A program made the translations under genes and the position numbers. A stretch of 36,157 bases of DNA. Source: Azoarcus sp. Lineage in GTDB: Bacteria; Pseudomonadota; Gammaproteobacteria; Burkholderiales; Rhodocyclaceae. The notes under the pieces were generated by a model that did no database searches, was not told the DNA's origin, and was given only the letters and a program-made list of their open reading frames with translations. Location: the NCBI GenBank assembly GCA_031277415.1, contig JAITMK010000011.1:1-36157 (forward strand), given 5' to 3'. This document shows, piece after piece, positions 2,902 to 24,630 of the stretch (positions within the stretch are counted from its first letter, which is position 1; each line of letters begins with the position of its first letter).

Positions 2902-3185
2902 ATCCGGGCGTTATATTTCTCTAATGCCTGCTGGTACTGCGCAGGTTCTACCCAAAACCCTCCGCGCGCCGGGTCACCTACATAAACCGGCACGGTCTCA
3001 TCCAGGTCTGTATATGCGTGGTTCCAGTAAGCGCCGCAATATAATCCGGGCGTTATATTTCTCTAATGCCTGCTGGTACTGCGCAGGTTCTACCCAAAAC
3101 CCTCCGCGCGCCGGGTCACCTACATAAACCGGCGCGGTCGCATCCAGGTCTGTATACGCGTGGTTCCAGTAAGCGCCGCAATAGC
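2902..3185 (+). repeat. 142-bp tandem duplication in the 3' end of trbM copy 2
   Basis: The segment beginning ATCCGGGCGTTATATTTCTC at 2902 recurs at 3044 and runs nearly identically to GCGCCGCAATA in both units (ending about 3041 and 3183). The units differ at only a few bases (for example TATATGCG versus TATACGCG). Because 142 is not a multiple of three, the duplication shifts the frame of the gene that contains it. Confidence 0.9.
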
Positions 3186-3576
3186 TGGGCATCCTGTTCG
3201 AGATGACCATCTTCGTGGTTTCGGTATTGGGGTCCCAGGCGTATGAACGCAAATTATTGAAGCTGGCAACATCGCATCTTCCGGCGCCTTCACTGATGGC
3301 GTTCACAAGCTGCCTCATGGTGTTGTCTTCGGTCTTGACCGAGGGACACTTGTTCAGAAATTTGCGACGGTCTTTTACCGTGTCCGACCATTTCTTGTGC
3401 GAAATACTGAAATACCTTTGGAGCGAGGGGGTGCACTCGTTCGGGCGTTGGCCGGTTGATAGACACAGGATTGCCTCACATGCCAGTTTTGTGTCCCCCG
3501 TCAGCATTCCGTGGTTTTGCGCGTTTGTCGTGAAACAGGCCCCGAAGATCATCAGGGCGAACAGGCTTTTTTTCAT
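2998..3576 (-). CDS. TrbM-like protein, copy 2, C-terminus altered by a tandem duplication
   Basis: The start is the MKKSLFALMIFG methionine at 3576, behind the same AAAGGGGAGTG ribosome binding site as copy 1. The product is 192 aa with a signal peptide (cleavage near TNAQ) and the TrbM core LTGDTKLACEAILCLSTGQRP, so it is probably periplasmic with disulphides. TrbM/KikA proteins accompany IncP-type mating-pair formation genes, and their exact role is poorly defined. The protein matches copy 3 up to EKYNARI. There the 142-bp duplication throws it into another frame and replaces the usual tail (AQENAA...FN) with ILRRLLEPRIYRPG. The original tail codons survive at about 2855-2901, beyond the present stop. 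The core is intact, so it could still function. Confidence 0.85.
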   Translation of the reverse strand: MKKSLFALMIFGACFTTNAQNHGMLTGDTKLACEAILCLSTGQRPNECTPSLQRYFSISHKKWSDTVKDRRKFLNKCPSVKTEDNTMRQLVNAISEGAGRCDVASFNNLRSYAWDPNTETTKMVISNRMPSYCGAYWNHAYTDLDATAPVYVGDPARGGFWVEPAQYQQALEKYNARIILRRLLEPRIYRPG

Positions 3577-3670: not shown

Positions 3671-4246
3671 TCAGTTGAAAATATTCTTTCGCGTGGCTGC
3701 TGCGTTTTCCTGAGCAATCCGGGCGTTATATTTCTCTAATGCCTGCTGGTACTGCGCAGGTTCTACCCAAAACCCTCCGCGCGCCGGGTCACCTACATAA
3801 ACCGGCACGGTCGCATCCAGGTCTGTATACGCGTGGTTCCAGTAAGCGCCGCAATAGTTGGGCATCTTGTTCGAGATGATCATCTTCGTGGTTTCGGTAT
3901 TGGGGTCCCAGGCGTATGAACGCAAATTATTGAGGTTGGCAACATCGCATTTTCCGGCGCCTTCACTGACAGCGTTTGCAAGCTGCTTCATGGTGTTGTC
4001 TTCGTTGACCGAGGGACACTTGTCCAGAAATTTGCGGCGGTCTTTCACCGTGTCCGACCATTTTTTGCGCGAAATACTGAAATACTTTTTGATCGAGGGG
4101 GCGCACTCGTCCGGGCGTTGGCCGGTTGATAGACACAGGACCGCCTCACATGCCAGTTTTTTGTCACCCGTCAGCATTCCGTGGTTTTGCGCGTTTGCCG
4201 TGAAACCGGTCCCGAAGATCGCCAGGGCGAATAGGCTTTTTTTCAT
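3671..4246 (-). CDS. TrbM-like protein, copy 3 (intact)
   Basis: The start is the methionine at 4246 (MKKSLFALAIFGTGF), preceded by AAAGGGAAGTGATC; the track start at 4426 lies inside the upstream gene. The product is 191 aa. It has a signal peptide ending near TANAQ, then LTGDKKLACEAVLCLSTGQRP and APSIKKYFSISRKKW, which is the TrbM/KikA/MpfK signature, and a C-terminal half with NYCGAYWNHAYTDLD and ARGGFWVEPAQYQQALEKYN. It is the only one of the three copies with its natural C-terminus (TRKNIFN). It follows the 761-aa gene by 28 bp, so it belongs to the same operon. It is probably an exported periplasmic accessory of the secretion system. Confidence 0.88.
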   Translation of the reverse strand: MKKSLFALAIFGTGFTANAQNHGMLTGDKKLACEAVLCLSTGQRPDECAPSIKKYFSISRKKWSDTVKDRRKFLDKCPSVNEDNTMKQLANAVSEGAGKCDVANLNNLRSYAWDPNTETTKMIISNKMPNYCGAYWNHAYTDLDATVPVYVGDPARGGFWVEPAQYQQALEKYNARIAQENAAATRKNIFN

Positions 4247-4274: not shown

Positions 4275-6560
4275 TCAAAGAGACAACTCAGGTTCTTTAC
4301 GCTGAGACTCTTCGTGCACATGCGTAGCGTTTTCCTGCGCGTTGGAATCCGACTGTTCCAACTGCTCCAGGAAATCAGGGTTTTCCGCAGCCTTGTCATA
4401 TTTGGAAATAGCCTCGGTCTGAGCATTCTCTGGTTCGAGCTTTGTCATTTCCTGCACGATGCCACGCCAGTACGCAAGCTTTTCAAGGGCTTCCGGTGTC
4501 CTGTCGGCCAGCGCCGGGTTTTTCTTGAGTTCTTCAAGATTTGCAGTGACGCTGGACGTGGCTACAGTGTGTAATTGCGGCTGGTTCTTGTTCAGATCGT
4601 GGCGCGGGGCGTACTCGGATTTATCTTGTTGCTCCGCGTAATCGGCCTGCCGTTCGCTCACTGGCTGGATATTGTTTGTCGCCCGCTCCTGCCGCAGCAC
4701 TTCGAGCGCGACAAGATCGGCCTTTTTGGGTGAGTAGCCAGTGGTTTTAAGTCCCTGGCTTTCTGCTTCGAGCCACGCTTCCCGGCGAAATTCCTTGGAG
4801 CCCGATAATTTGAGAGTGTTCCATTGCTTGGCCTTTGCCACAGCAATCATGTCACTAACAACCCCACTGTCCGCGCCCGACATTTTTAGCTTGTTGCCGA
4901 GGTCTTCAAAGGCTACGCGCGGCTGCCTTTCCTTCGTGTAAAACTTGCCGTCGACTTCAAGATACCTTTGCGCGACAGAATGCGGCAGGACGAATTCATT
5001 GGCGCCAAGCTCCTTACCGGTTGGCTCGTTCAGATCGATCATGTGCTCCCGCTGCTCTCGTCCCATCTTTGCTTTGAGGATGGACTCGATTTCAGCATTT
5101 CGCACGGCTTGCCCCTCTTCCTCATGGCGCACGCGCCCACCGGCTCCGGGCAATTCGGAGCGTGAGTCCCCGGGCGTCCCGATTTCTGCGCTACTACGCA
5201 GATCTCCAGGCTCTACTGCACCAGACGGGTAATTGGATTCGCGTCCACGCAAATCAAGATCATCGATGGCAAGCAGTTCCGAGCGCGAGTCCTCGGGTGA
5301 TTCAAGCACATCGGCTTCGCTGCGTGCCCTGGCACCGAGCCGATCGAGCGACTCGGCTTCGTCGTTAGCGCTTTTCGGACGATCACTGTGAAGACTGATG
5401 ATGCGCTCTTCACCAAGCACGGCGGCAAACGTTCCGTTTTCGTTAAATCCGTTTTTACTTTCCACGAAAAGCTGAGGCGATACCTTATCGAGAGCGTTTC
5501 GGTAATGCTCGTTCGCCTGAGCGCAAGCCGCCATCTCTTTGAGTTGCCTGTCACGGGCTTGTTCATCATCAAGCAGATCGAGGCGCACCATATCGGCATC
5601 AACCTGTTTAGCGACTTCATCGAGGGGCATGCTTTTTACATGGCCGACTTTCTCAGCCAGGGTTCGTGCGTCGATTTCGGCGAGTATCGACGGGGCAATC
5701 TCTGCAATTTCTTTGCGATAGTACGGATTTGCGGTGGCTTTCTGACCGATTGTGGCTAGCGCCTGTTCTCGTTCTTCTGCGTTGAGCGCGTCAAAGCGAT
5801 CAATGTCCGCATCAGCGGCATCCGTTGCCTCTTGTTTCAACATGTCCTGCACTGTGCGGGCGTTTTTAGCCGTAGCTTCCTCAATGCGGTTATTCATACT
5901 GTATCCTCTGCTTTCCCGCACTTCTTCCTGGTACGGGAAGTGTTGCTGCGTTCGGGTTTGGTCGTGCAGTCCTTGCGCAACCATCCGGGTGATGTTTTCG
6001 AGGTCTGCGGAGGTCATCCGCCGGGGCTGTTCGGCGGTGCACGTTTCATAAAACGATTGCGAGCCCTCCTGACGAATTTGCACTGCTTCCTGTTCGTTGC
6101 CGGGTGCGGAAATCTTTTCGGTGAAGGTTGCATAGACCTCTTCGGCCCTTTCACGCACATCGACGTCCGGATACACCACGTCGACGTGGTTCCATAACCC
6201 GAGAAGCCCACGCTGCTGTCGCGCGGCAATCAGGGCATCGAGGAGGGCATCCTTTTCTTGCGTGGTAAATGTGTTGATACCGTAGTGACCAAGGATTTCA
6301 TGACGCAGGGATTCATTGGCGTCATGTATGTCATTGGTATTGCCTGCAATCAAATTCACCTGACCATGAAATGCCCGTCCATCGCGGCTCACGAACGGTT
6401 TTGGGCTGATCGTGGCCTTGAGGTTCGAAAGGTCGCCGTCGTAATCCGGATAGATATCTTGCGGTTTCTCGCCGATTTTGTAATAAAGGTGGCGAGCCAC
6501 CGGATACTGTTCACAGAAATCCCGGACAACCTGCTGATAGTCGTCAGCGGAGATGGGCAT
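4275..6560 (-). CDS. Polyvalent protein: HEXXGH metallopeptidase-like N-terminus and LPD7-like C-terminus
   Basis: This 761-aa protein has no signal peptide and no membrane helix. Near residue 87 it has LRHEILGHYGINTF, an HEXXGH zinc motif like those in phage and plasmid polyvalent metallopeptidases (the spacing also occurs in M49 peptidases); E140 and nearby acidic residues could supply further ligands. Residues ~253-297 and ~324-368 are two diverged copies of a helical unit (...RFDALNAEER..ANPYYR versus ...RLDLLDDEQA..ANEHYR). A low-complexity linker follows (~400-480, with DSRSELL and DSRSELP). Residues ~530-620 resemble LPD7, including KLSGSKEFRREAWLEAESQG and a following TGYSP, a domain common in relaxase-linked and polyvalent proteins. 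The start overlaps the 62-aa gene as TGATG. Its place directly after the coupling protein makes it a good candidate substrate of this T4SS. That is inference, and no relaxase motif is seen. Confidence 0.75.
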   Translation of the reverse strand: MPISADDYQQVVRDFCEQYPVARHLYYKIGEKPQDIYPDYDGDLSNLKATISPKPFVSRDGRAFHGQVNLIAGNTNDIHDANESLRHEILGHYGINTFTTQEKDALLDALIAARQQRGLLGLWNHVDVVYPDVDVRERAEEVYATFTEKISAPGNEQEAVQIRQEGSQSFYETCTAEQPRRMTSADLENITRMVAQGLHDQTRTQQHFPYQEEVRESRGYSMNNRIEEATAKNARTVQDMLKQEATDAADADIDRFDALNAEEREQALATIGQKATANPYYRKEIAEIAPSILAEIDARTLAEKVGHVKSMPLDEVAKQVDADMVRLDLLDDEQARDRQLKEMAACAQANEHYRNALDKVSPQLFVESKNGFNENGTFAAVLGEERIISLHSDRPKSANDEAESLDRLGARARSEADVLESPEDSRSELLAIDDLDLRGRESNYPSGAVEPGDLRSSAEIGTPGDSRSELPGAGGRVRHEEEGQAVRNAEIESILKAKMGREQREHMIDLNEPTGKELGANEFVLPHSVAQRYLEVDGKFYTKERQPRVAFEDLGNKLKMSGADSGVVSDMIAVAKAKQWNTLKLSGSKEFRREAWLEAESQGLKTTGYSPKKADLVALEVLRQERATNNIQPVSERQADYAEQQDKSEYAPRHDLNKNQPQLHTVATSSVTANLEELKKNPALADRTPEALEKLAYWRGIVQEMTKLEPENAQTEAISKYDKAAENPDFLEQLEQSDSNAQENATHVHEESQRKEPELSL

Positions 6561-6748
6561 CAGTCTTCACCGCCATCACCCATCAAAGCGGCATCAACCT
6601 CTTCGGCTGGCGCGCCAGGGGGGAGGCCAAGCATTTCACGCAGAGATTTCGTGCGGATGTGCGTGGGCGGCGGCAATGGTTCACCGCTTGTCACATCATC
6701 GTCAAAGCACGGGCCGGCGGGAGGGGGGGAGCATTTTTCATCTGACAT
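6560..6748 (-). CDS. Small acidic protein between virD4 and the polyvalent gene
   Basis: A 62-aa product starting MSDEKCSPPPAG, with no signal peptide or membrane segment. A GAGG ribosome binding site lies 7-8 bases upstream, overlapping the virD4 stop; the start is 11 bases after that stop, and the gene's own stop overlaps the next start as TGATG. These tight junctions argue that it is a real gene. The only recognisable feature is a helical-looking segment, LREMLGLPPGAPAEEVDAAL, similar in style to short segments in phage-derived proteins. I do not recognise a family. Its size, acidity and position just ahead of a large candidate substrate would fit a secretion chaperone or adaptor, which is only inference. 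Confidence 0.7.
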   Translation of the reverse strand: MSDEKCSPPPAGPCFDDDVTSGEPLPPPTHIRTKSLREMLGLPPGAPAEEVDAALMGDGGED

Positions 6749-6758: not shown

Positions 6759-9053
6759 TCAAATTCTAAATTTGCGCAGCACGGCGAGACCCTTGTCCAC
6801 CGCCATGATCTGCTCGGGCGTCACCGGCGGCTCACTGGTCAGTCGTAACCATTCCGTCCGGTAGACTTCGGCCAGTTCGGGCGTGTTACGAAGCACGATC
6901 GCGGTTTCAGCATTTCGGTTGTCCGCGCTGGACGTATAGTTGAAGCTGCCAAGCTGGACGTGCTTCTTGTCGGCAACCATGAATTTATGATGCATGGCCG
7001 TATAGTTCGCGCACTTGATGACTGGCACGTTTTTCGAGACCAGGAAATCAACGGCCTTGTAATCCGTCTGGTCATCGTTGTTTTGTGCCCTGTCGACAAC
7101 GATACGCACGTCGACCCCTCGGGCCTTGGCTTCGCCCAGGGCGAGCGCGATTGGGCGCGAGGTTAAGGAATAGGCGGCCACGTACAACTCATGCTGTGCC
7201 GATAAAATCAGGGACATCACTGCCTCCAGGGCGTTTCTTCGAGGCGAAAATCCAACCTCGAAACTCACGCCGCTCCCGAGCGACTGGTCGCGGATTGCCC
7301 CGGAGAAATGCAGCGTCTCGGAAACGTCCGGTTCGATGGTGTTTTCCGGTTGTTCCGTGCTGCTCTGATCGGGGGCAGGGGGCAGGGGCATGTTTGCCCG
7401 GCGCATGAATACCGGCTCTTTGTACCACCTGATTTTGTCCACGAGGGCCGGAACCATGTTTTCCAGGCTGATGATTTCTTTTTCGATGCCAATTGCCTTG
7501 ACTTCCTGCGGCAGCAGCACCGCGCGGCGCTGGTCGCTCTCGGACTCACTCTGGCCGCCGTTCTTGCTCAAACCAAGCTGGCGAGACTTCGACGTGGATT
7601 TCTCGGTCATGTAACCGATCATTTCGCTGTAGTCCTTCGCGTCCTGATCGTCGCGCGGCGCATAACAGACTTGCAGCGCCATGTTTGTGAGCATGGTTTG
7701 CGCGCCGGTCTTGTCATAGAGCTTGCGATCCTCGACCTGCGACTTGCTCTGGAAAATCAGCAACAGGCGCATGTTGTAGCCTGCCATGTACGCGCAGGCC
7801 TTTTCGATAATGGCAACCCTTCCCATTGCCGGGAATTCATCGAGCAGCAAGAGGCACTGGTATTTCAGTTCCGGGTTTTCCTCGGGCAATTCATCCATGT
7901 TCAGTACCAGCAACTGCTGGAAGAACAGGTTCAGAAATTGGCCGAACTTGTCGATGTTTGCTGGCCGGATAACAACGTAGATCGACATCCGGCGCTTGCG
8001 CACATCGCGCAGGTCAAACGTGCTTTTGCTCGTGGCCTGCGCCGTGATCGGATCTGAAAAGATGCCCAGGGGCTTGTCAAACGAAATGTCGATGGACGAA
8101 CGCATCTTTTCGACCGTTTTCGCGTAGGCGAGTAGATGCTGAATACAATCGGCGCTCAACGGCTCATAGCTTTTGCGTGATTCGACATAGGCCAGAAACG
8201 TTTTTTCGTCGGCCAGGAAAGACAGGGAGGTCTTGTACTTCTTGATCGTGGCAATGTTGAGGTTGTCGCGTTCCTTTGCCGTGTCGAGAATGTAAAGCGC
8301 AAGGCCGAGGAAAAGACTCTCCGCCGTGCTGTTCCATACGTCATCGCTGGGCGGATAAAGGATGTTGGTGATGCTCATCAAATCTTTTATCCGAAGCATC
8401 GGGTCATGCCGGACATAATCCAGCGGGTTCCAGCAATCCGTTTTAAATTTTTCGTCATCCGGGGCGAACCTGTAGACTTCCTGGCCGCAAGCCGCGCGGA
8501 ATCCGGCGGTGACCTTGTAGTTTTCCTCTTTCACATCGAGGACGACCACCGAATCCCGGTAATGCAAAAGATTCGGAATAACAATGCCGACACCCTTGCC
8601 GGAACGGGTCGGCGCGGACAAAAACATGAACTGCTGACCACGAAAAAGCAAAAATTGCTTTCCTGCTTTGCCTACGACCAGCGACGGGTACTTGTCATCA
8701 TTTTTGTCTGGTTGAAGCAAGCCGGATTTCCGGAGATCGGCGGTGCTGGCCAACTTTGCCGATCCGTGTAGTTCCCGGTGCTTCGGCAGAAAAACGGCAA
8801 TACCCACTCCGCCGAACAGGAGTACCGGCAACCCGAAACTGACGATAAGCGCCAGAATGCCAAAGCCCTTGATCTTTTTGTTCTGGCTGTACTTCACTAC
8901 GTTGATCGGCAGCGACATCGAGGGCGTGACTCCGGTTTTGCCGGAAAGCATCCGGCCAGAAACCGAGAGCAGAGCAAGCGAAGTGCCGAGCGCCATGAAC
9001 ACGAGAAACGCAACGGCAATAGCGATTTTCTGCGGCTTCAGGGAGGAGTTCAT
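6759..9053 (-). CDS. virD4: VirD4/TraG-type coupling protein fused to a PLD-family nuclease domain
   Basis: This 764-aa hexameric-type ATPase would recruit substrates to the secretion channel. Two N-terminal membrane segments (about residues 9-31 and 63-89) are followed by a cytoplasmic TraG domain with LHGSAKLAS, Walker A (APTRSGKGVG, about 147-156), the family-typical SAPTRSGKG context, and Walker B LLLLDEFPAMG (about 401-411). The canonical TraG region ends near residue 560. A linker leads to a C-terminal domain (about 595-735) of the phospholipase D superfamily, closest in style to Nuc endonucleases: LYVAAYSLTSRPIALAL, VDVRIVVDR, then HHKFMVAD (HxKx4D at 688-695) and LGSFNYTSSADNRNAE. Nuc is usually a separate gene beside conjugation genes (as in IncN plasmids). 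Here it is in the same reading frame with no stop between. One HKD motif per chain implies a dimeric active site. Its start overlaps the virB11 stop as ATGA. Confidence 0.93.
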   Translation of the reverse strand: MNSSLKPQKIAIAVAFLVFMALGTSLALLSVSGRMLSGKTGVTPSMSLPINVVKYSQNKKIKGFGILALIVSFGLPVLLFGGVGIAVFLPKHRELHGSAKLASTADLRKSGLLQPDKNDDKYPSLVVGKAGKQFLLFRGQQFMFLSAPTRSGKGVGIVIPNLLHYRDSVVVLDVKEENYKVTAGFRAACGQEVYRFAPDDEKFKTDCWNPLDYVRHDPMLRIKDLMSITNILYPPSDDVWNSTAESLFLGLALYILDTAKERDNLNIATIKKYKTSLSFLADEKTFLAYVESRKSYEPLSADCIQHLLAYAKTVEKMRSSIDISFDKPLGIFSDPITAQATSKSTFDLRDVRKRRMSIYVVIRPANIDKFGQFLNLFFQQLLVLNMDELPEENPELKYQCLLLLDEFPAMGRVAIIEKACAYMAGYNMRLLLIFQSKSQVEDRKLYDKTGAQTMLTNMALQVCYAPRDDQDAKDYSEMIGYMTEKSTSKSRQLGLSKNGGQSESESDQRRAVLLPQEVKAIGIEKEIISLENMVPALVDKIRWYKEPVFMRRANMPLPPAPDQSSTEQPENTIEPDVSETLHFSGAIRDQSLGSGVSFEVGFSPRRNALEAVMSLILSAQHELYVAAYSLTSRPIALALGEAKARGVDVRIVVDRAQNNDDQTDYKAVDFLVSKNVPVIKCANYTAMHHKFMVADKKHVQLGSFNYTSSADNRNAETAIVLRNTPELAEVYRTEWLRLTSEPPVTPEQIMAVDKGLAVLRKFRI

Positions 9054-10090
9054 AGGGCGGATATCTCCCCACGAAGGAGTTTCAATTTGCGCATGGGGTC
9101 GTAGTAAAGCTCGGAGATGTACGTTTTATCGAAGTACGCAACAACATCGATAGTGGTCATGACCTCTTGCATGATGTAAGTGAAATCGAGCGTTTGCCCG
9201 ACGGCACTTTGCTTGATGTAACTGCCGATCTTGTAGAGTGCGCCCCGGCAATCATTGGCGTGGATCGAAGTCACAGAACCCGTGTGGCCGGACTTCAAGG
9301 CCATGAGGTAATCCCAGGCTTCATCCCCTCGTAATTCGGCAAGAAAAATGTGGTCTGGCTTCATCCGCATACAGGAGGCCAGAATCTCCTTTGCGCCGAT
9401 CAATGGTGAAAAGAACAACGGCACCGAATTGGGGTGATACGGCATCGTGAGTTCACGCGCGTCCTCTATAGTGAACATTCGCCGGTGAAACGGATAAAGG
9501 TCTATCAGGCACTTGGAAAACGTGGTTTTTCCGGAACCCGTGCCGCCGACGGTGACAATGTTCAGCTTCTGCTCGACGGCAATTTCAAAGAACCGTTTGA
9601 ACTGGCTTGCCTGAGACAAGTCGAGCATTTCTTGTTCCCAGGGCAACAGCGCGTCGGTGATCGAGGTCAGCCTTGGCTTGAGGCGACCTGATTTCTCATA
9701 GTCATCGAGCGTAAAACGGCTTGTTGACGGTTTGCGGATGGTAATGACCGCCCTGCCGTCTTCTGTTGCAGGGGGTAGAACGATCTGGCAGCGTTCGCCA
9801 TCCGGCAGCGTCAGACTGGCAATGGGGTTATCCCGGCTGAGTGGCTTCTTGCAGTAAATCGCAGCAGCGTTGGCCAGGCCGTTCAACGCCTGGAGGGTAA
9901 GGGTTGAATTCTCGAACCGTTGCCAACCGGCGGCGCTTTCCGTCCAATGCTCACCGGGTTTGTTGATGGCAAACTCGGTTATATCGCCCTCCAAAGTAGC
10001 GGTAACGCCCATAGACTTGAGCATCTCCCGGACGGTGAGGGCGTTATCGACGCGTGACACCCTCGACAACGGATTATTTGACGAGGTCAT
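9050..10090 (-). CDS. virB11: VirB11-type traffic ATPase
   Basis: The track ORF opens at 10297, but the likely start is the ATG at 10090 (MTSSNNPLSRVSRV), preceded by CGAGGGAGTCT and overlapping the end of virB10 by 17 bp. The product is 346 aa, the usual VirB11 size. It is a hexameric cytoplasmic ATPase that powers pilus assembly and substrate transfer. It shows the N-terminal domain, Walker A VGGTGSGKTTFSK (about residue 180), an Asp box around MFTIEDARELTM, Walker B-like DHIFLAELRGDEAWDYL and the His box SGHTGSVTSIHAND. The stop overlaps the virD4 start (ATGA), so the two ATPases are translationally coupled. Confidence 0.95.
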   Translation of the reverse strand: MTSSNNPLSRVSRVDNALTVREMLKSMGVTATLEGDITEFAINKPGEHWTESAAGWQRFENSTLTLQALNGLANAAAIYCKKPLSRDNPIASLTLPDGERCQIVLPPATEDGRAVITIRKPSTSRFTLDDYEKSGRLKPRLTSITDALLPWEQEMLDLSQASQFKRFFEIAVEQKLNIVTVGGTGSGKTTFSKCLIDLYPFHRRMFTIEDARELTMPYHPNSVPLFFSPLIGAKEILASCMRMKPDHIFLAELRGDEAWDYLMALKSGHTGSVTSIHANDCRGALYKIGSYIKQSAVGQTLDFTYIMQEVMTTIDVVAYFDKTYISELYYDPMRKLKLLRGEISAL

Positions 10091-11432
10091 AGACTCCCTC
10101 GAAAGACACGTCACGAGCGGCAAGGATGTAGATGACTGTTCCCGGCTTGACGATAAGCGTAGTGGGGATATTGATGCTCTCATCGAGCGTCTTTTCGGCG
10201 ATCGAGACGGCAGACTCGGCAGAGGAACTGCCAACGGTGACCCGGTTGCCGTTCCGGTTGGCGATTTTCTGCGCGGCGGCCTTGGCGAAATCGTCAATGA
10301 TCGATATCAGGATTGCGCCGCCAAAACGCTCCATCAAATGACGATCAACGACACCAGGAATACCGCTATAGCCGAGGCTATCAACGCCAGGTGAGTCGAG
10401 ATCGAAAGTGACGCCATTCGGGTTGTCGCCACGCGACCAGGCAACGAATGTGCGGAACTGCCCGCGCGAGAGTGCGGTGGTTTGTTCGCCAAAGAACGTT
10501 GCACCGCGTTCAACCAGCAATGTTTTGTTATTGGCGCTATAAACGTCCTTGATGGTGCGGCAAAGGGTGAATCCGGAAAGCTGTGTATCAATACCCGTTA
10601 CCAGAGCGCACGGTATGACCGTTCCTTTTTTGAGGATGAAATCCAGATTTCCGAGCCTGTCGGCAGACACCGCAGTCAGACGCGCGGTACGAAGACGCGA
10701 GGCAACGCCTCCTCCTGCACCCGCAGCGGCACCCAACATGCCTCCGCCGTCGAAGGCGCCGCCCATATCATTGGAGATCAGCCCTGCGGCTTTCATTCGG
10801 CGCGCGATTTCATTCTCTTTCCAGGACTCTCTGTCAGCATCGGAGGTGGGGAAACCCACTGGACCCACATACCCGTCATTGCCCCCGGCCTGCCCTAAGG
10901 ATTGCGTGTCGTTACCGGCTACCGGGTTGTATACACCACCCGAGGTCGGCACCAGAACGCCTGCGCGGAGGCGGCGCTGAACAGCGTCATCCGGGGTGGC
11001 CTCCTGCCCTTCACCAGTGTCCCCGGCCTGCGGCGGTTCCAGCCCTGCGAGGAAGCGCGCGCGCTTCTCCGCCTCTTCTCTCTCGGCAGCCTCTCTCTCG
11101 GCAGCCTCCAGCGCGACCTGGCGGGCTTCCTCGGCCTTGCGAATACGCTCTTTTTGATCTCCGATGGATTCGTTGTCGATTGCGGCGTTCTTGATTTCGT
11201 AGGTCGCTTTCTGGAGTGTCGCCGGGGTAGCAGCAGGGGCCGTCGTTGTCTTTGATCTGCCAAAAAACATGAGACCGGCCAACATGACGATGATGCCGAG
11301 CAGGAGCATGGCCAGCAGCTTCACCTTGGCCACATTGGTTTTCGACTTCGTTTCGGATGTGGGCGTCGAGAATTCTTCATTCAGGTGCGGGAGTGCGCCA
11401 TCACCGCCGGAAACAACCGTTGAATTACTCAT
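10074..11432 (-). CDS. virB10: VirB10/TrbI core-complex protein
   Basis: The chosen start is the ATG at 11432 (MSNSTVVSGG), behind a very good GAGGGGAGTAAAA ribosome binding site; the track start at 11459 lies inside virB9. The product is 452 aa. One membrane helix (about residues 37-58, LLAMLLLGIIVMLAGLMFF) follows a cytoplasmic tail. Then comes a charged coiled-coil and proline/glycine-rich periplasmic linker, and a C-terminal TrbI domain with KGTVIPCALVTGIDTQL, GATFFGEQTTALSRGQFR and GGAILISIIDDFAKA. VirB10 spans the envelope, senses ATPase energy and forms the outer-membrane channel with VirB9 and VirB7. It overlaps virB9 by 8 bp and virB11 by 17 bp. Confidence 0.95.
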   Translation of the reverse strand: MSNSTVVSGGDGALPHLNEEFSTPTSETKSKTNVAKVKLLAMLLLGIIVMLAGLMFFGRSKTTTAPAATPATLQKATYEIKNAAIDNESIGDQKERIRKAEEARQVALEAAEREAAEREEAEKRARFLAGLEPPQAGDTGEGQEATPDDAVQRRLRAGVLVPTSGGVYNPVAGNDTQSLGQAGGNDGYVGPVGFPTSDADRESWKENEIARRMKAAGLISNDMGGAFDGGGMLGAAAGAGGGVASRLRTARLTAVSADRLGNLDFILKKGTVIPCALVTGIDTQLSGFTLCRTIKDVYSANNKTLLVERGATFFGEQTTALSRGQFRTFVAWSRGDNPNGVTFDLDSPGVDSLGYSGIPGVVDRHLMERFGGAILISIIDDFAKAAAQKIANRNGNRVTVGSSSAESAVSIAEKTLDESINIPTTLIVKPGTVIYILAARDVSFEGVYDLVK

Positions 11433-12231
11433 TTTTACTCCCCTCGGTGCGCACTGCACCGTACTCGCCAGCGTTGGTACGATTTACGGCGGGCTGTTTG
11501 TAATTGCGGTTGTGAATTTCAATGACCTGGTTGTTCAGACGCGCACGCACGACGCGGATAACTTCCTGCAGGACGATGGTCTCCTTTGCCTTGTCATCAA
11601 CGTTGTAGTTGACCAGGGCCTCGGAGCCGTCAGGCAGCACCTTGTAGAAAACAGGTAACTCCCCGGCATGGTTGTATTCCAGCCGGGTGAACCGGCCATC
11701 ATCCCATGCGGCAGTCGGCGCGAGCAGAACATCCGATCCGTTGCCTTTCCAGATGTAGTTTGTGTTGATTGTGCGCTTCTCGGCACGGGACGAGGTTGTC
11801 AGGCCAAGCCGCCGACGCACGGCGGCAATCTCGGCGGCCTGGTTTTCAGGGTAAATGAACCGGAAAATGTAGGTAGGCGGATTGGCTTTTGTGGCGGGAC
11901 GAAGGTCAAAGGCGTATGTGCGCTTGTTCGTTACCAGTACGATGTTTGAACCATTCTCCAAAGCGGCAGGCTTCAGGCTGACGCTGTTGCCTTTTGCTCC
12001 AACGTGCCATGCACCGGCATCACCCATTCCGAGCAGGGATTTTGGCGTTTGTAGCGTTTCATCCGGGGCGAACTGAATAAGGCTTGCGAAACCAACGCTT
12101 GTATAAATGACATAAACCTTGTTCGGGTCATACACGACTTCACGGATACGCGAGTCTTTGGCGGCAGCAGGCGTGGTAAGGCCAAAAGTCAGACATAGCG
12201 CCGAGAACCAGAGAATTTTGCTGAATTTCAT
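11425..12231 (-). CDS. virB9: VirB9 core-complex protein
   Basis: The product is 268 aa with a clear Sec signal peptide (MKFSKILWFSALCLTFGL...AAA). The mature part has the VirB9 pattern: an N-terminal beta domain including VREVVYDPNKVY-like RIREVVYDPNKVYVIYT, a central linker, and a C-terminal CagX domain with INTNYIWKGNGSDVLLAPTAAWDDGRFTRLEY and VNYNVDD. It forms the outer-membrane ring with VirB10 and a VirB7-type lipoprotein. The start overlaps the stop of the upstream membrane-protein gene as ATGA. The length is typical. Confidence 0.93.
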   Translation of the reverse strand: MKFSKILWFSALCLTFGLTTPAAAKDSRIREVVYDPNKVYVIYTSVGFASLIQFAPDETLQTPKSLLGMGDAGAWHVGAKGNSVSLKPAALENGSNIVLVTNKRTYAFDLRPATKANPPTYIFRFIYPENQAAEIAAVRRRLGLTTSSRAEKRTINTNYIWKGNGSDVLLAPTAAWDDGRFTRLEYNHAGELPVFYKVLPDGSEALVNYNVDDKAKETIVLQEVIRVVRARLNNQVIEIHNRNYKQPAVNRTNAGEYGAVRTEGSKNE

Positions 12232-12677
12232 GGGGTTTCGCCTTTGTAAAAACGAATGAGGGCTGCCACACCGGAGGCGGGATGGGGTTTGTTGTCCTGT
12301 GACCGGTAGAAATCATTGACAATGCGGGTTAATTCAGAAAACGTAATAACGCCTTCCGTTTCCAGGTGTCTGCCCAGTTCAACTTTTATTTCCGTGTCGA
12401 TGTCTCTGCTCGATGCGATGTTCAACAAAAGGTCATCAGGAATCGCGGCGTTTCCAATAAAAACGGCCCCTGTCAAATAGAGGATGAACCAGCTTCCAAA
12501 AAGGATGGAAATCAAAATTGCTCCCGAGAGGGCGGCAATAGTTGTACCCAGAAATTGAACGCTCAGAATGGTGCCGAGTGTCACGCCTATAACCGCCACT
12601 ACTAACGCGCGGCGAGTATTATTTGCCCGTTTTTCGGCGTTACGTCTTTCGATCATTCTGAAAATTTCTGTATTCAT
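12228..12677 (-). CDS. Small inner-membrane protein between virB8 and virB9
   Basis: A 149-aa protein that is not a lipoprotein. A basic N-terminus (RMIERRNAEKRANNTRR) precedes two or three hydrophobic stretches (ALVVAVIGVTLGTILSVQFLG, IAALSGAILISILFGSWFILYLTGAVFIG). The C-terminal ~65 residues are soluble and charged (IDTEIKVELGRHLETEGVITFSEL). In the standard virB order this slot holds virB7, but the 52-aa lipoprotein at the operon head is a better VirB7 analogue. The gene starts 3 bases after the virB8 stop, with GGGAG upstream, and overlaps virB9 as ATGA. I do not recognise the family. Operon position suggests a platform accessory. Confidence 0.7.
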   Translation of the reverse strand: MNTEIFRMIERRNAEKRANNTRRALVVAVIGVTLGTILSVQFLGTTIAALSGAILISILFGSWFILYLTGAVFIGNAAIPDDLLLNIASSRDIDTEIKVELGRHLETEGVITFSELTRIVNDFYRSQDNKPHPASGVAALIRFYKGETP

Positions 12678-12680
12678 CTC

Positions 12681-13466
12681 CTATTCTCTCCCTATCGCTT
12701 CGGGGTTCACCTGATAGGAAAGGACTTTGAATCCGAGCGGATTGACCATCCGTTGCTGGTCTGTCATCAAACCCGCATCAAATTCAAAAACGACTGTAGC
12801 AATCCAACGCTGAAGGGGTGAGCCGTCGGGGTTTTCGCCTGCGGCGGTTAGTTTCTGCGAAGTAAATCGTACCGATGCGGTATTGGAATCAAGGAAGGAA
12901 ACAGAAACAATACGAACATCGATCCGGCCTTTGTCCTTGAGCATTTCAAGCGGGGCATTTTTGGCCTTGACTTTATTGCTGTGAGCGGTAAAAACGTCGC
13001 TTGAACTGAAAAGCTCGCAAGAATCAAAGTCAACACCGATTGAATACCAGTCGTACCGCTCGCACGTTTTTACGTAATTCGCTACCCAATACCTGTTAAC
13101 AACTTCGTCGTAGCTATTGTTGGCATCCTTGATCGAGGTGAGTACGTCGATATTCCCCGTGGTGTTGTCAAGACGCAGGATGGTGGGCTGCGGCTCACGG
13201 TGGAGAGCAAACGACATCAGGATACCTACGACGCAAACGAAGGCGAACGCAATGGCACCGGCTATTCCTTTCACCAGCAGCTTGTTGGTGCGCTGAAGGG
13301 TCTCGTTCTTCGACCTTTCGAAGTCGAGCGCGGCATCAACAAAGGTTTGAGGAAGCCGCTTCGGAGACACGGTCTGAACGGCCCGACCGCTTTTAACGGG
13401 CGTCGCCACCTCATCCGCCGGGGCCGGAGGTTGTTGTTTTGACTTGGGGAAAAATGGAAATCTCAT
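12681..13466 (-). CDS. virB8: VirB8/TrbF assembly protein
   Basis: A 261-aa bitopic inner-membrane protein. A cytoplasmic tail of about 65 residues is followed by one membrane helix (LLVKGIAGAIAFAFVCVVGILMSFAL) and a periplasmic NTF2-like domain containing YDEVVNRYWVANYVKTCERYDW and ending NPLGFKVLSYQVNPEA, the classic VirB8 C-terminus. It nucleates the inner-membrane complex with VirB6, VirB10 and VirB4. It starts 3 bases after the virB6 stop; its ribosome binding site (AGGATAAG) lies within the end of virB6. Confidence 0.93.
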   Translation of the reverse strand: MRFPFFPKSKQQPPAPADEVATPVKSGRAVQTVSPKRLPQTFVDAALDFERSKNETLQRTNKLLVKGIAGAIAFAFVCVVGILMSFALHREPQPTILRLDNTTGNIDVLTSIKDANNSYDEVVNRYWVANYVKTCERYDWYSIGVDFDSCELFSSSDVFTAHSNKVKAKNAPLEMLKDKGRIDVRIVSVSFLDSNTASVRFTSQKLTAAGENPDGSPLQRWIATVVFEFDAGLMTDQQRMVNPLGFKVLSYQVNPEAIGRE

Positions 13467-13469
13467 GGC

Positions 13470-14507
13470 TTATCCTGGCTTTACGCCGTTTGAACCTTTA
13501 AGTAAATTCATGACGGCGGAACCAAGACGTCCTGCACCGCCAAGCGCTTTTCCACCCGTCCACTTGCCTGCGGCTGCCGCTCCTGCAGCTCCCTTTCCGG
13601 CGAGTTTCGCCGCGCCCCTGCCTGCCCGAGAAGCTACACCGCCGCCGCCTACCGTGCCTGGATTGATGCCGCCTGCGCTGAGGGAGGAGGCGAGGGCTTT
13701 ACAGGTTAACAATAGAAAAATCAGCAACCAATTCACAAGTGAGGCCTTAACACATGTAGTAAAAGACATATCTTCGAATGTCGTACCGTTGAAACCAAAG
13801 ATTGTCTTTGAAATTTCGATACCGAACAAACCGACAATAGCAACCAAAACAGGTAACAACGCATACGAGACGACACTATTCATCCATGACGAAAAGTATT
13901 GGCGTGTTGCAGGGAACATAAGACATGCAAAAAAGATAGGGCCAACAGCAGCCACTAACATTGTGCCAACCTTCGCAATAATAAGAAGAACGCCCGCAGC
14001 AACCAAGAAGGGGATAAGACCAATATAAATAACAAGTGATTTGAAAAACCAAAGAAGAGGCTGAGTAACATTATCTGATCCATCCCAAAACCCCAGGCCT
14101 TGAATGCGATCATAATCAGTATCTATAATCTTCATATAATGCGCCACAAGGTCATCAAGTCCCGCCGCCGGACTCGGTGATCCGCTTATAGCTGATGAAA
14201 GATCATTGCCGAGGCTTTGTATCATAGGAATTACAAGGTTTTGGTAATTGTTTATATTAAGGCCAAGGCCAATTACAATAGAGAACGCAACCCAGCGCAT
14301 CCAAACGTCCCACACAGGATTGGATGAATTACCACGCATCATGTCTACAACAACCAAAATGATGTAGATGCCAAAACAGATAGCAACGAGCGGCATGATA
14401 ACGGTGGCGATCCCGTGCGAGGCCGAGATCGCCGTGTTAGCAATTTCCGTGTCGACTATGCTAATAAGAGACGCTACGGGTTTGGCTGTGTCAAAGGAGA
14501 ACGACAT
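13470..14507 (-). CDS. virB6: VirB6 polytopic inner-membrane channel component
   Basis: A 345-aa protein with about six hydrophobic helices (for example IVIMPLVAICFGIYIILVVV-like near the start, KSLVIYIGLIPFLVAAGVLLIIAKVG, SYALLPVLVAIVGLFGIEI, LVNWLLIFLLLTCKALAS) and a glycine/alanine-rich cytoplasmic tail. VGPIFFACLMFPATRQYFSSWMN matches the TrbL/VirB6 plug region. It forms part of the inner-membrane substrate route. The middle of the gene (about 13690-14400) is visibly richer in A and T than the genes on either side, which may reflect separate ancestry or relaxed GC pressure. The start is 2 bases after the preceding lipoprotein stop. Confidence 0.92.
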   Translation of the reverse strand: MSFSFDTAKPVASLISIVDTEIANTAISASHGIATVIMPLVAICFGIYIILVVVDMMRGNSSNPVWDVWMRWVAFSIVIGLGLNINNYQNLVIPMIQSLGNDLSSAISGSPSPAAGLDDLVAHYMKIIDTDYDRIQGLGFWDGSDNVTQPLLWFFKSLVIYIGLIPFLVAAGVLLIIAKVGTMLVAAVGPIFFACLMFPATRQYFSSWMNSVVSYALLPVLVAIVGLFGIEISKTIFGFNGTTFEDMSFTTCVKASLVNWLLIFLLLTCKALASSLSAGGINPGTVGGGGVASRAGRGAAKLAGKGAAGAAAAGKWTGGKALGGAGRLGSAVMNLLKGSNGVKPG

Positions 14508-14509
14508 GA

Positions 14510-14896
14510 CTACTTGCTCCGCGTGTATCCCTTTGAATCAAGGCATGCATGATCTGTATGTGCAGTGTCAACGTATTTCGTAATTACACTGCCTGATTCA
14601 TCATGCGGCCAGCATTTCGTCGGAAGTACCATTCTTCTCGCCTTTTTCGGTAGTTGCACTTTTGCAAAAAGATCCGGGGTTGGTTCCCCGAGCTCTCCAC
14701 GGTCGGCAGCAGCAGAGGCGGCCATCGCCGCATCGATGTCATGCAGCCAATCGCCCAACTTCCATGTGTTGAGCCTGTCCATATGCACCTTTGCTTCTGG
14801 TGACAAATTTGCGCTTTCTTTGTCCTCAAAGCAGCCGCTCAATGTGACTGCCAAAAGAACCCCGATTAACAGTCGGGTCTGTTGAATTGTTGACAT
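14510..14896 (-). CDS. Paralogous small lipoprotein L1, at the entry-exclusion position
   Basis: The start is the ATG at 14896 (MSTIQQTRLLIGV), eight bases after AAGGAGG, not the track start at 14902; this also aligns with the other copies. The product is 128 aa. A lipobox VTLSGC places the mature protein as a membrane-anchored lipoprotein. The body has LSPEAKVHMDRLNTWKLGDW and a conserved C-terminal DTAHTDHACLD with cysteines. It lies between virB5 (30-bp overlap) and virB6, where pKM101 and R388 carry their eex entry-exclusion lipoprotein. The sequence does not show the EexN motif I would expect, so exclusion is inferred from position. A core-complex lipoprotein or an immunity protein are alternatives. 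Nearly identical to L3. Confidence 0.85.
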   Translation of the reverse strand: MSTIQQTRLLIGVLLAVTLSGCFEDKESANLSPEAKVHMDRLNTWKLGDWLHDIDAAMAASAAADRGELGEPTPDLFAKVQLPKKARRMVLPTKCWPHDESGSVITKYVDTAHTDHACLDSKGYTRSK

Positions 14897-15546
14897 GACC
14901 ATTCCCTCCTTGCTTCCTGTGCTGCTTGTTTGATTTCTTCCTGGCTGATCTTCTCGTAGGCTTGCATGGCCTGCATGTTTGCCTGAACCGTTGCCTGCTC
15001 GACGGCCAGCCTGTTAGCCAGGTCGAGCTTGTCGCCGGGGTCTTTTGCGCTATTGATTCGGGTCATCAGGTTGCCGATGTTCTCAATGCGCGCATTCGTC
15101 TGGTCGTACATGCTTTTGAACGCTGCCCGCTGACCGGCCATCTCGTCGTACATCTTGTTGAGCTTCGGCGCACCTTCAAGCGTTGGAAGTTTTCCGCGTT
15201 CAATTTTGTAGCCTGCAAGACTCTTGGCGTTCGAGACGGCCTTCTGCATTTCAGCGGGAATCTGGTTTTTCGGAATCGCGTCGTAAATTTGGCCGAGATT
15301 GCTTGCGCCCTTGAGAGCGTTGTAGGTTTTCTGGGCCTGTTGAAATTGCTGCACCAGTTGGTTGTACTGTTGGGTCATTCCCTGAACTTGTTGCCCCCAC
15401 TGCGCCAGGGTTTCAACCTGCTCCGTAATGGACTGGCCCAATTCGGCGGCGGAAATAACCGGGATGCCCCCGGCGCTTGCCACTGGCATTACCCCGGCCA
15501 TAGCGGTTGTCATACCCGCAACCAGGACGGTTTTCTTAAGGTTCAT
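14866..15546 (-). CDS. virB5: VirB5 minor pilin/adhesin (intact copy)
   Basis: A 226-aa protein with signal peptide MNLKKTVLVAGMTTAMAGV...ASA. The mature part is almost entirely helical and glutamine-rich (VETLAQWGQQVQGMTQQYNQ, LVQQFQQAQKTYNALKG), then LMTRINSAKDPGDKLDLANR and QEARREWSCQQF at the end, as in TraC/VirB5 proteins that cap the pilus tip. AAAGGAGGAACC is an excellent ribosome binding site 0-8 bases upstream. It overlaps the L1 lipoprotein by about 30 bp. Its 3' end is the source of the three virB5 remnants found upstream. Confidence 0.92.
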   Translation of the reverse strand: MNLKKTVLVAGMTTAMAGVMPVASAGGIPVISAAELGQSITEQVETLAQWGQQVQGMTQQYNQLVQQFQQAQKTYNALKGASNLGQIYDAIPKNQIPAEMQKAVSNAKSLAGYKIERGKLPTLEGAPKLNKMYDEMAGQRAAFKSMYDQTNARIENIGNLMTRINSAKDPGDKLDLANRLAVEQATVQANMQAMQAYEKISQEEIKQAAQEARREWSCQQFNRPDC

Positions 15547-15588
15547 GGTTCCTCCTTTCTGGGTGGTTTCAGCGGGATTGCCGCTGTT

Positions 15589-15658
15589 GTCAGAGTCGTG
15601 CTGCTACAGCCGTCTCGGTTTGCTGGGGGGGCTCTGTTTTTTAGCATGTTTGCGTAAT
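15589..15658 (-). pseudogene. Scar of the virB4 3' end upstream of virB5
   Basis: This intergenic stretch repeats the last ~20 codons of virB4 and its downstream leader. On the minus strand it reads codons for RKHAKKQSPPSKPRRL followed by a stop, against LRKQAKKQKPPQQTKTEEAVAA at the real virB4 end, and both are followed by the GTAGCAGCA-GACTCTGACA leader of virB5. The gene order was therefore once virB4-virB5 directly, and the block now between them arose by duplication. No expression is expected. Confidence 0.8.
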
Positions 15659-15731
15659 CTCCGTTTCGATTGTCCCTGTTACAGAAGAATCCGGCGCGTC
15701 TGGATTAAAAGAAAACGCCATGATGGGTTTC

Positions 15732-16121
15732 CTACTTTCCTCGTTTGTATCCGGCAGCATCCAAACACGCATGATCCGTGTGTGCGGTGTCTATCATCGT
15801 CTTGGTAGTGGGATCGCCCTGTTTCCATCGTGGCCAGCAGTCTGCCACTGAACCACTGGAAGACATGTTGTCAGCGCGCCATGCCAGTTCAAGCTTGCCA
15901 GCCAGGTCCGGGGATAGCGTGCCAAGGTCTCCACGTCTTTCGGCCTCCAAAACGGCTTTGGCGGCATCAATATCATGGAGCCAGTCAACCAGCTTCCATT
16001 TGTTGAGTCTCTGGATATGCACTTTCGCCTCTGGCGACAGGTCGTCATCCTGACAACCACACAACATGACGGCTGCCGCAAGGCCACAAATCAACATCCG
16101 GGTTTTTTGAACTGCATACAT
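15732..16121 (-). CDS. Paralogous small lipoprotein L2 (divergent)
   Basis: The start is the ATG at 16121 (MYAVQKTRMLICG), with AAGGAGAGAATGGGA upstream; the track start two codons earlier lacks correct spacing. The product is 129 aa with lipobox VMLCGC. It keeps the LSPEAKVHIQRLNKWKLVDWLHDIDAA core and the C-terminal DTAHTDHACLDAAGYKRGK, but the middle (about residues 60-105) differs strongly from L1 and L3. The pattern of conserved ends and a variable centre is what one expects of proteins diversified for recognition specificity, though drift is also possible. About 185 bp including the virB4 scar separates it from virB5. Confidence 0.85.
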   Translation of the reverse strand: MYAVQKTRMLICGLAAAVMLCGCQDDDLSPEAKVHIQRLNKWKLVDWLHDIDAAKAVLEAERRGDLGTLSPDLAGKLELAWRADNMSSSGSVADCWPRWKQGDPTTKTMIDTAHTDHACLDAAGYKRGK

Positions 16122-16178
16122 TCCCATTCTCTCCTTGCTTCCTGACTTGCCTGCTGACTTCTTTGCAGGCTTGCATGA
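16122..16178 (-). pseudogene. virB5 3'-end remnant before L2
   Basis: On the minus strand this reads, just after the L3 stop, ATGCAAGCCTGCAAAGAAGT, recalling MQAYEKIS of VirB5, followed by codons for QEARRE, the VirB5 C-terminus. The last part doubles as the L2 ribosome binding region (AAGGAGAGAATGGGA), which explains why it survived when the rest of virB5 was lost. Confidence 0.75.
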
Positions 16179-16565
16179 TTACTTGCTCCGCTTATAGCCC
16201 TGCGCATCGAGACACGCATGATCTGTATGTGCAGTGTCAACGTATTTCGAAATTACACTGCCTAATGCATCATGCGGCCAACATTTCGTCGGGAGTACCA
16301 TTCTTATCGCCTTTTTCGGTAGTTGCACTTTTGCAAGAAGATCCGGGGTTGGTTCCCCGAGGTCTCCACGGTCGGCAGCAGCAGAGGCGGCCATCGCCGC
16401 ATCGATGTCATGCAGCCAATCGCCCAACTTCCATGTGTTGAGCCTGTCCATGTGCACCTTTGCCTCGGGAGACAAATTTGCCGTCTCGCTGTCTCCGCAG
16501 CCGCCAATCAGAACGGCGGCAGAGAAAACGCCGATTAACAGCCGGTTTCGTCGAATTGCGTACAT
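16179..16565 (-). CDS. Paralogous small lipoprotein L3
   Basis: A 128-aa product starting MYAIRRNRLLIGV with AAGGAGAGAACGGGG upstream and a lipobox VLIGGC. The mature part is almost the same as L1: only scattered substitutions (for example E/D after AADRG, R/I after PKKA, and near the C-terminus QGYKRSK versus KGYTRSK). Its first ~35 residues instead match L4 almost perfectly (MYAIRRNRLLIGVFSAAVLIGGC). L3 is thus a mosaic: an L4-like signal peptide with an L1-like mature domain. It is preceded and followed by short virB5 remnants. Confidence 0.85.
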   Translation of the reverse strand: MYAIRRNRLLIGVFSAAVLIGGCGDSETANLSPEAKVHMDRLNTWKLGDWLHDIDAAMAASAAADRGDLGEPTPDLLAKVQLPKKAIRMVLPTKCWPHDALGSVISKYVDTAHTDHACLDAQGYKRSK

Positions 16566-16622
16566 CCCCGTTCTCTCCTTGCTTCCTGACCTGCCTGCTG
16601 ACTTCTTTGCAGGCTTGCATGA
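16566..16622 (-). pseudogene. virB5 3'-end remnant before L3
   Basis: This short stretch repeats the unit seen before L2: a virB5-like ATGCAAGC start two bases after the L4 stop, codons recalling QEARRERG of the VirB5 C-terminus, and an AAGGAGAGAACGGGG ribosome binding site used by L3. Confidence 0.75.
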
Positions 16623-17021
16623 TTACTTGCTGCGTTTGTATCCGGCCGCATCCAGACACGCATGATTTGTGTTGGCGGTCGTGGATCTTCCACTTTCTGG
16701 CCAGCAATATATGACCGAAGATGTTTTCTCGTCATAAATGCCTCTGGGGCCAGCCAATTTTGTGGCTTGTCGTGCAAATTCCAGTTTTGCGACAAGGTCA
16801 GGGGTTGGGTGTCCGAAGTCGCCATTATTTGCCGCCTGCATGACAACCCTGGCGGTATCTACATCGTGTAGCCAATCTCCCAATTTAAGGGTTTCAACTT
16901 TTTTCCAAAGCGCTGCCGCCTCGGGAGACAAATTTGCCGTCTCGTTGTCTCCGCAGCCGCCAATCAGAACGGCGGCAGAGAAAACGCCGATCAACAGGCG
17001 GTTTCGTCGAATTGCATACAT
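16623..17021 (-). CDS. Paralogous small lipoprotein L4 (divergent)
   Basis: The true start is the ATG at 17021 (MYAIRRNRLLIGV), preceded by AAGGAGAGAGCGGAA; the track ORF to 17201 reads through the virB5 remnant in the wrong frame. The product is 132 aa with lipobox VLIGGC and the family core LSPEAAALWKKVETLKLGDWLHDVDTA. The central region (ANNGDFGHPTPDLVAKLEFARQ and onward) diverges from L1/L3, and the C-terminus returns to NHACLDAAGYKRSK. It is the first of the four lipoproteins to be transcribed, after virB4. Confidence 0.85.
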   Translation of the reverse strand: MYAIRRNRLLIGVFSAAVLIGGCGDNETANLSPEAAALWKKVETLKLGDWLHDVDTARVVMQAANNGDFGHPTPDLVAKLEFARQATKLAGPRGIYDEKTSSVIYCWPESGRSTTANTNHACLDAAGYKRSK

Positions 17022-17189
17022 TTCCGCTCTCTCCTTGCTTCCTGACTTGGCTCGCTGATTTCCTTGCAGGCTTGCACGGCCTGCATGTTTGCCCGAACCG
17101 TTGTCTGCCCGATGGCAAGGCGGTTTGACAGACCGGGTTTGCGGCCGGGGTCTTGGGCGCTGTTGATGCGGGTCATCAGGTTGTCGCGG
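17022..17189 (-). pseudogene. Longer virB5 3' remnant between virB4 and L4
   Basis: On the minus strand this encodes MTRINSAQDPGRKPGLSNRLAIGQTTVRANMQAVQACKEIS and QEARRE in one frame (track ORF 16991..17176), clearly related to the last ~70 residues of VirB5 (MTRINSAKDPGDKLDLANRL...). The 5' two thirds of that virB5 copy are gone: the sequence jumps from the virB4 downstream leader (GACTCTGACA) straight into the virB5 3' region at about 17189. No start or signal peptide remains. Confidence 0.85.
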
Positions 17190-17197
17190 TGTCAGAG

Positions 17198-19642: not shown

Positions 19643-19994
19643 TTCTGAGCTTCCTTGTGTATGACGTTGGCGCTATCGTGAATGTGCCTCCAAAAATTCC
19701 TGCGTTACCGCTCATCCATTTTATGAGCGCCCATTTCACTTCCTTTGCAATCTTAGTTAGTGCCCTGTCATCCGTTTCGCACTGGATGCGCGCGAAAATC
19801 AGGAGGGGTACGGCCGATACGGCAAAGAACCACCCATAGGGGCTGACGAAAACGCCAAGCATCATGGACGGCAACAAACAAGCGCACACGATGCCAAGAC
19901 CGGCCATGAACGGGACGCCCCAAACCATCGGCGCCCGTCCAAGGCCGTTGTAGCTCAGATATTCGATCGGTTCTTGATCGTCGATATCGGACAT
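19605..19994 (-). CDS. virB3: VirB3 inner-membrane protein
   Basis: The start is taken as the ATG at 19994 (MSDIDDQEPIEYLSYNGLGRAP); the track start at 20087 lies inside virB2. The product is 129 aa. Two adjacent membrane helices (VPFMAGLGIVCACLLPSMMLGVF and GWFFAVSAVPLLIFARIQC) with a short N-terminal tail match VirB3/TrbD. The C-terminal cytoplasmic part is a little longer than usual. VirB3 works with VirB4 and VirB6 in the inner-membrane platform. It starts 13 bases after the virB2 stop and overlaps virB4. Confidence 0.88.
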   Translation of the reverse strand: MSDIDDQEPIEYLSYNGLGRAPMVWGVPFMAGLGIVCACLLPSMMLGVFVSPYGWFFAVSAVPLLIFARIQCETDDRALTKIAKEVKWALIKWMSGNAGIFGGTFTIAPTSYTRKLRNVESAIKAAVRR

Positions 19995-20007
19995 GGCTAC
20001 CAGTCCA

Positions 20008-24517: not shown

Positions 24518-24630
24518 ACCGAGGTCTCCGGGTTGTTTCATACAGCATATGCTATATGGAACGATAACTCAAGATGCTGTTGTGTTTTTTGTAAGAAGCC
24601 CAGGAAAATCAAATCTTCCAGAAAACCGGT

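Follow-up and report, generated by a model that had tools for sequence, protein, structure and literature searches.

How conjugation machines select their protein cargo is poorly understood. Relaxases are exported by definition, and in alphaproteobacteria a BID domain with a charged tail marks the cargo of type IV secretion systems (T4SSs). A conjugative system exports the Fic toxin VbhT, and short export signals are described as notoriously difficult to predict (PMC5675462); PezT/Zeta-BID proteins count as accepted candidates for export (PMC6509941). The TraC1 protein of RP4 travels to recipients in conjugation (PMC7213743, PMC5512222); the related plasmid R751 encodes a homologue of RP4 TraC, of 1448 aa. 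Polyvalent proteins, as described by Iyer et al. in 2017, join zincin and LPD domains beside T4SS genes (PMC5512222). Here, we describe a two-gene unit behind virD4 that shares features with each of these systems.

The locus and its 761-aa protein

The window that we analyzed, 36,157 nucleotides from Azoarcus sp., is an entire contig (C63) of a metagenome-assembled genome (MAG) with a size of 2.6 Mb and a completeness of 98%. On its minus strand, from about position 20 kb downwards, a VirB-type operon is followed by virD4, a gene for a 62-aa protein, a gene for a 761-aa protein, and three copies of trbM. The operon (positions 9050 to 20087, minus strand) is of the VirB3-VirB11 type (VirB11, -10, -9, -8, -6, -5, -4, and -3-like), and virD4 (6759 to 9053, minus strand; PF02534) encodes a coupling protein with a PLD-like domain, that is, a phospholipase D-like nuclease (PF13091), fused to its C terminus. 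A zeta toxin gene lies on the plus strand (21988 to 23130; PF06414, E value of 1.7e-36), and the antitoxin position is occupied by a 189-aa protein with an internal duplication (21426 to 21995, plus strand), assigned by position and repeat, for which no Pfam match was found. Chromosome-type genes flank both sides, with MscS on the left and, on the right, genes for a sensor kinase and an ABC permease. Neither relaxase, MobC, nor primase was found in the window, and neither relaxase nor primase in the MAG, which is weak evidence in a binned genome. PHROGs and PADLOC gave no matches.

Several minor features of the contig are worth recording. The TrbM/KikA genes stand in tandem (2162 to 2764, 2998 to 3576, and 3671 to 4246, minus strand), with changes in the second half of the most distal one. 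Four paralogous, small lipoprotein-like ORFs (14510 to 14902, 15732 to 16127, 16179 to 16565, and 16623 to 17201, minus strand) occupy the position of the VirB7-like or exclusion lipoprotein gene of plasmids, an unusual multiplication. A PD-(D/E)XK transposase-like gene whose product has a repetitive C terminus (23534 to 24541, minus strand) lies between the zeta gene and the chromosomal genes.

An earlier note had proposed that a polyvalent metallopeptidase-like protein, with an HEXXGH zinc motif, an internal helical duplication, and an LPD7-like domain, is translationally coupled to a small acidic protein directly behind the coupling protein, and our analysis bore out this description together with the association with conjugation. 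The two ORFs (4275 to 6560 for the 761-aa protein and 6560 to 6748 for its partner, both on the minus strand) have base 6560 in common (TGATG), and the 62-aa ORF, whose product has a pI of 4.1, starts 10 nt past the virD4 stop codon with GAGGA upstream. Taking as polyvalent a protein with at least two unrelated effector-type domains beside T4SS or phage genes, we find a zincin and an LPD7 domain in the 761-aa protein and a T4SS operon adjacent to it. Compared with the proteins of Iyer et al. (PMC5512222), it is smaller, its zincin has no Pfam model, and it carries a candidate export module.

The N-terminal domain (residues 1 to 215; 5916 to 6560, minus strand) contains HEILGH at residues 87 to 92 (6285 to 6302) and a third-ligand motif, AEE, at residues 139 to 141 (within 6129 to 6149). 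The two histidines and the glutamate of HExxH, as well as AEE, are invariant in 35 aligned relatives. No Pfam model matches the domain at an E value of ≤1. Its AF2 model (pLDDT of 94.8) is mostly helical with three strands, and a Foldseek search against the PDB gave zincins as the sole likeness, a weak one (best MATCAP, E value of 0.039). From the conserved HExxH and the downstream acidic ligand, we assign the domain as a putative zincin and predicted protease. Residues 250 to 297 and 321 to 368 form the helical duplication (5457 to 5813, minus strand; alignment score of 73 against a shuffle mean of 23, equaled by 0/1000 shuffles), a related unit of which occurs in the LPD7 protein of genome G048. 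Further on, alignment revealed the short repeats SPEDSRSELL and TPGDSRSELP (residues 421 to 471; 5148 to 5300, minus strand), and SRSEL repeats also align in LPD7 proteins of Xylella and Verminephrobacter. The LPD7 domain itself (residues 529 to 619; 4704 to 4976, minus strand) scores well above the Pfam cutoff (PF18821, E value of 2.4e-19, 69.5 bits versus a gathering score of 27 bits). The protein ends in a region that we call module A and the tail ELSL-COOH (4278 to 4637, minus strand), together a candidate T4SS signal; by eye alone, no export signal was seen in the protein.

Resemblance to IncP TraD and TraC and distribution of relatives

The N terminus of R751 TraC is 44% identical to residues 1 to 209 of the 761-aa protein (210 aa, E value of 4e-42). 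The two proteins have in common their N-terminal 207 residues with an HExxGH zincin, a conjugation locus, and a small acidic gene directly upstream, which is traD in IncP plasmids and here a gene whose product resembles part of TraD. Beyond the N-domain, R751 TraC contains ArdC-N, a second zincin (MPTase-PolyVal), DUF5710, and Toprim, all absent from the 761-aa protein, whereas LPD7 and the C-terminal module of the latter are missing from R751 TraC. Since Pfam detects no Toprim primase domain in the 761-aa protein (nor elsewhere in the genome), it is TraC-like rather than a TraC primase. ArdC of R388 likewise has a zincin-type metalloprotease domain on a conjugative element (PMC7213743), but it also has an ssDNA-binding domain that the 761-aa protein does not have, and its protease type is that modeled in TraC as PF18818, which does not match the 761-aa protein.

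The resemblance of the 62-aa protein (6560 to 6748, minus strand) to TraD is confined to the C-terminal half of TraD, P-F-DD ... PP-I-T--RE---L-PG. With a TraD profile it scored above all 2000 shuffles, yet at just 10 bits, and in pairwise comparisons most TraD sequences scored higher with it than every shuffle or almost every one. A TraD-like ORF precedes the N-domain not only in IncP TraC but also at stand-alone N-domains (Zoogloeaceae, L051; Thiosymbion, L052). Because of this match and this recurrent gene order, the 62-aa and 761-aa pair resembles the beginning of a traD-traC unit to which an LPD7 gene has been joined. We also considered the 62-aa protein as a possible VirE1-like chaperone. 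At the Thiosymbion locus (9320 to 15900 of L052), on a 679-kb contig of a nematode symbiont, TraD-like plus zincin units stand in tandem.

The full 761-aa protein, used as a query against genome contigs in our first search, returned no relatives, whereas a profile of its N-domain found 50 loci. Among the 72 N-domain loci eventually collected, the domain is N-terminal in 35, lies inside giant, mostly phage-like proteins in 33, and is a fragment in 4. The proteins with N-terminal placement are mostly of TraC type or otherwise linked to conjugation; they include a few stand-alone domains and, in Pseudomonas, NTD-Toprim-LPD7 proteins. The relatives therefore do not occur mainly away from T4SS genes, which the earlier note had named as an outcome that would speak against its proposal. 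In five loci (L078, L079, L081, L087, and L089), giant phage-type proteins contain two copies of the N-domain.

LPD7 matches were found in 355 plasmids, 239 of which were typed conjugative, and those complete plasmids that we examined encode it at or beside the position behind virD4. Xylella pPLS206, Verminephrobacter pVEIS01, IncU (TraC4), and pIPO2 (TraO) share both this gene position and LPD7 with the window. Residues 408 to 736 of the 761-aa protein are homologous to the LPD7 protein of pPLS206, and residues 490 to 736 to that of pVEIS01, both encoded directly behind virD4. These two also have module A and an SL tail, but they have no zincin domain and no TraD-like partner. A search with the middle region (residues 213 to 490) gave no match among the loci collected up to then. 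No second case of the compact zincin-LPD7 fusion was found, the nearest being the Pseudomonas NTD-Toprim-LPD7 proteins, a 1747-aa protein in genome G320 with both parts, and separate neighboring genes in Oligella.

C-terminal modules and tails

Module A, which the earlier note had overlooked, spans ∼110 aa at the C terminus of the 761-aa protein and is common to the zeta toxin of the same element (residues 252 to 377; 22741 to 23118, plus strand), whose tail is GLEL. Comparison of the C termini of LPD7 protein and zeta toxin within an element gave scores of 66 in Xylella and 59 in Verminephrobacter (0/2000 shuffles each), and the window LPD7 protein aligned with the Xylella zeta toxin at 73 (0/2000). 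The two proteins of the window, compared directly, match weakly (36/2000 shuffles), so that this pair rests on the profile. A profile built from LPD7 proteins only retrieved zeta toxins at E values of 3.8e-5 and 1e-4, with no other extra matches among the ORFs of the loci collected then; the reverse search, with a zeta profile, retrieved LPD7 proteins, and the window zeta toxin joined in the next round at 8.8e-7. A joint profile recovered the LPD7 protein and zeta toxin of the window, another zeta toxin of the same genome, and zeta toxins on contigs of the same genus. Two zeta toxins continue past module A with C-terminal extensions.

Module A is rare. Among 369 genomes of the class, this genome alone matched, and in plasmids, convincing matches were limited to Xylella and Verminephrobacter. 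Its AF2 model is mainly helical (mean pLDDT of 62.5), has no PDB match, and is too uncertain for claims about the fold, such as the four-helix bundle with hook that characterizes BID domains. In a genome of the same genus, module A forms residues 2066 to 2165, at the end of a 2178-aa Eco57I-type methylase with an SNF2/ResIII helicase (1908 to 8444 of L137), a candidate exported counter-restriction protein.

A second lineage (B) has its own module, module B, on LPD7, zeta, and Fic proteins, the IncU primase TraC4, a phosphoribosyltransferase, and two proteins of pMBUI6, one of which has a weak LPD29 match. No homology between modules A and B was detectable (hhalign, 2%), and a Pfam scan at an E value of ≤1 gave no match to the BID family.

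Relaxases do not have the modules, yet they have the tails. In lineage A, relaxases end in GQEL or GNSL, LPD7 proteins in EQSL or ELSL, and zeta toxins in GNSL or GLEL; in lineage B, relaxases end in DIER, DAER, or DEDER, LPD7 proteins and primases in GMDR or NENER, zeta toxins in DPER, and Fic proteins in ERER. [SE]L-COOH is found in 9/10 putative cargo proteins and 0/82 others of lineage A, and R-COOH in 29/30 putative cargo proteins and 54/450 others of lineage B, counts that are not independent, since the elements are related, so that nominal P values overstate their strength. We ranked 33 cross-family pairs, each within one of 20 elements, by the match of their last five residues against comparisons from the same element: 19/33 pairs fell in the top 5%, with a median of 0.04. 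When the 5-residue frame was shifted inwards, this number dropped to 11/33 at one residue, 5/33 at two, and 0 to 4/33 from three on, so the tail match is confined to the C terminus and fades inwards. We first saw the pattern in about five elements, prior to testing it; among the pairs from eight plasmids added subsequently, 9/10 ranked at or below 0.11. The one failure, in Vibrio, involves an apparently split LPD7 gene, the downstream part of which has the module and an ER tail. The tail of R751 TraC differs from that of its own relaxase.

Tail type and VirD4 type vary together. Among ten VirD4 proteins compared, the PLD fusion was found, besides the window, in Xylella and Verminephrobacter only, and these lineage A coupling proteins are ∼70% identical to one another and 32 to 44% identical to the others. 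In Pseudomonas plasmids, a separate PLD protein is encoded just before the N-domain gene (L050).

Probable export of the 761-aa protein and competing readings

The proposal of the earlier note that the pair is T4SS cargo gained indirect support, from the homology to TraC, the module shared with zeta toxins and other cargo-like proteins, and the tails shared with relaxases. That the same protein families share modules and tails is read most simply as marking T4SS cargo. The 761-aa protein is therefore probably a T4SS-exported, TraC-like polyvalent protein with a two-part signal that resembles BID but is unrelated to it in sequence; its export by the adjacent VirB/VirD4 system, which we infer, is likewise probable. 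Module A and the tail would dock on the PLD-fused VirD4; within the donor, the acidic 62-aa partner would hold the protease in an inactive or unfolded state, and the 761-aa protein would unfold in order to pass. After arrival in the recipient, its zinc site would re-form and might then cut either a recipient protein or the linkers of the polypeptide itself. The suggestion that the protein disarms recipient defences found no specific support: the related protein ArdC, which joins ssDNA binding to a metalloprotease domain, does not need its protease site for antirestriction (PMC7213743). Disarming by proteolysis is therefore no safe assumption, and self-processing, which Iyer et al. (PMC5512222) proposed for polyvalent proteins, is just as possible.

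Were the 761-aa protein a donor-side adaptor, LPD7 and module A would tether the relaxase or a toxin to VirD4, and the protein would stay in the donor, where its zincin would act. LPD7 does occur in the relaxase TraI of R751 and is separate behind virD4 where the relaxase is short, suggesting a relaxase-linked job, but zeta and Fic toxins, which share the modules and tails, make little sense as adaptors, and a TraC-type primase with LPD7 also bears the module; we consider this reading unlikely. It is rather improbable, too, that the shared C termini reflect a habit of each lineage (charged flexible tails, stability tags, or recombination between plasmid genes) instead of an export signal. Charged, low-complexity regions are overrepresented at the C termini of the cargo set, and some plasmids, such as pMBUI6, have near-identical duplicated C termini; against this stand the restriction of the match to the last few residues, the different endings of the two lineages ([SE]L in A and R in B), and the relaxases with a tail but no module.

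Finally, the locus might be a decaying relic that lost its relaxase and duplicated its TrbM and lipoprotein genes, leaving the 761-aa protein functionless, as the missing relaxase, MobC, and primase, the chromosomal genes on both sides, and the transposase-like gene by the zeta gene could suggest. Nevertheless, the 761-aa ORF, the zeta toxin, and every T4SS ORF examined have their full length, catalytic residues are intact, and a relaxase may act in trans, since binning often misses plasmid contigs. We regard decay as very unlikely and retain export as the preferred reading.

More generally, we lean slightly towards the view that beta- and gammaproteobacterial VirB/VirD4 systems use a lineage-specific, two-part C-terminal export code, made of a ∼100-aa helical module and the last residues, that covaries with the coupling protein. 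Such a code would be common to relaxases (tail only), primases, LPD7 proteins, zeta and Fic toxins, and counter-restriction enzymes; it would parallel BID and make cargo predictable from sequence. BID-domain substrates (VbhT, PezT/Zeta-BID, and Bep; PMC5675462, PMC6509941) likewise have a ∼100-aa C-terminal module and a short tail on toxins, on conjugative elements with a covarying coupling protein. They differ in that the lineage A tail is acidic/hydrophobic and not basic, the relaxases here have the tail only, and export here is predicted.

The individual domains, the relationship to TraC, and the idea of exported toxins are of kinds already known. In the open-access literature searched, we found neither the domain combination, the zincin without a Pfam model, the coupling to a TraD-like gene, nor the two modules with lineage-specific tails, which are above all the new part. 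A shared, lineage-specific module and tail offer a directly testable rule for predicting further cargo, among it toxins from toxin-antitoxin pairs that would be sent in mating, and would place LPD7 proteins, found behind virD4 in many plasmids, in the export pathway. The tail, unrecognized so far and common to toxins and other mobile-element proteins, may be an address label into the receiving cell.

Two minor observations concern toxins. Fic proteins on MPF_T plasmids (39484 to 40789 of L143 and 44342 to 45319 of L146) end in module B and ERER, and one such protein adjoins a VbhA-type antitoxin. Contig C8 of the Azoarcus genome (3431 to 6660 of L133) carries two more antitoxin-zeta pairs, the second toxin being truncated within module A.
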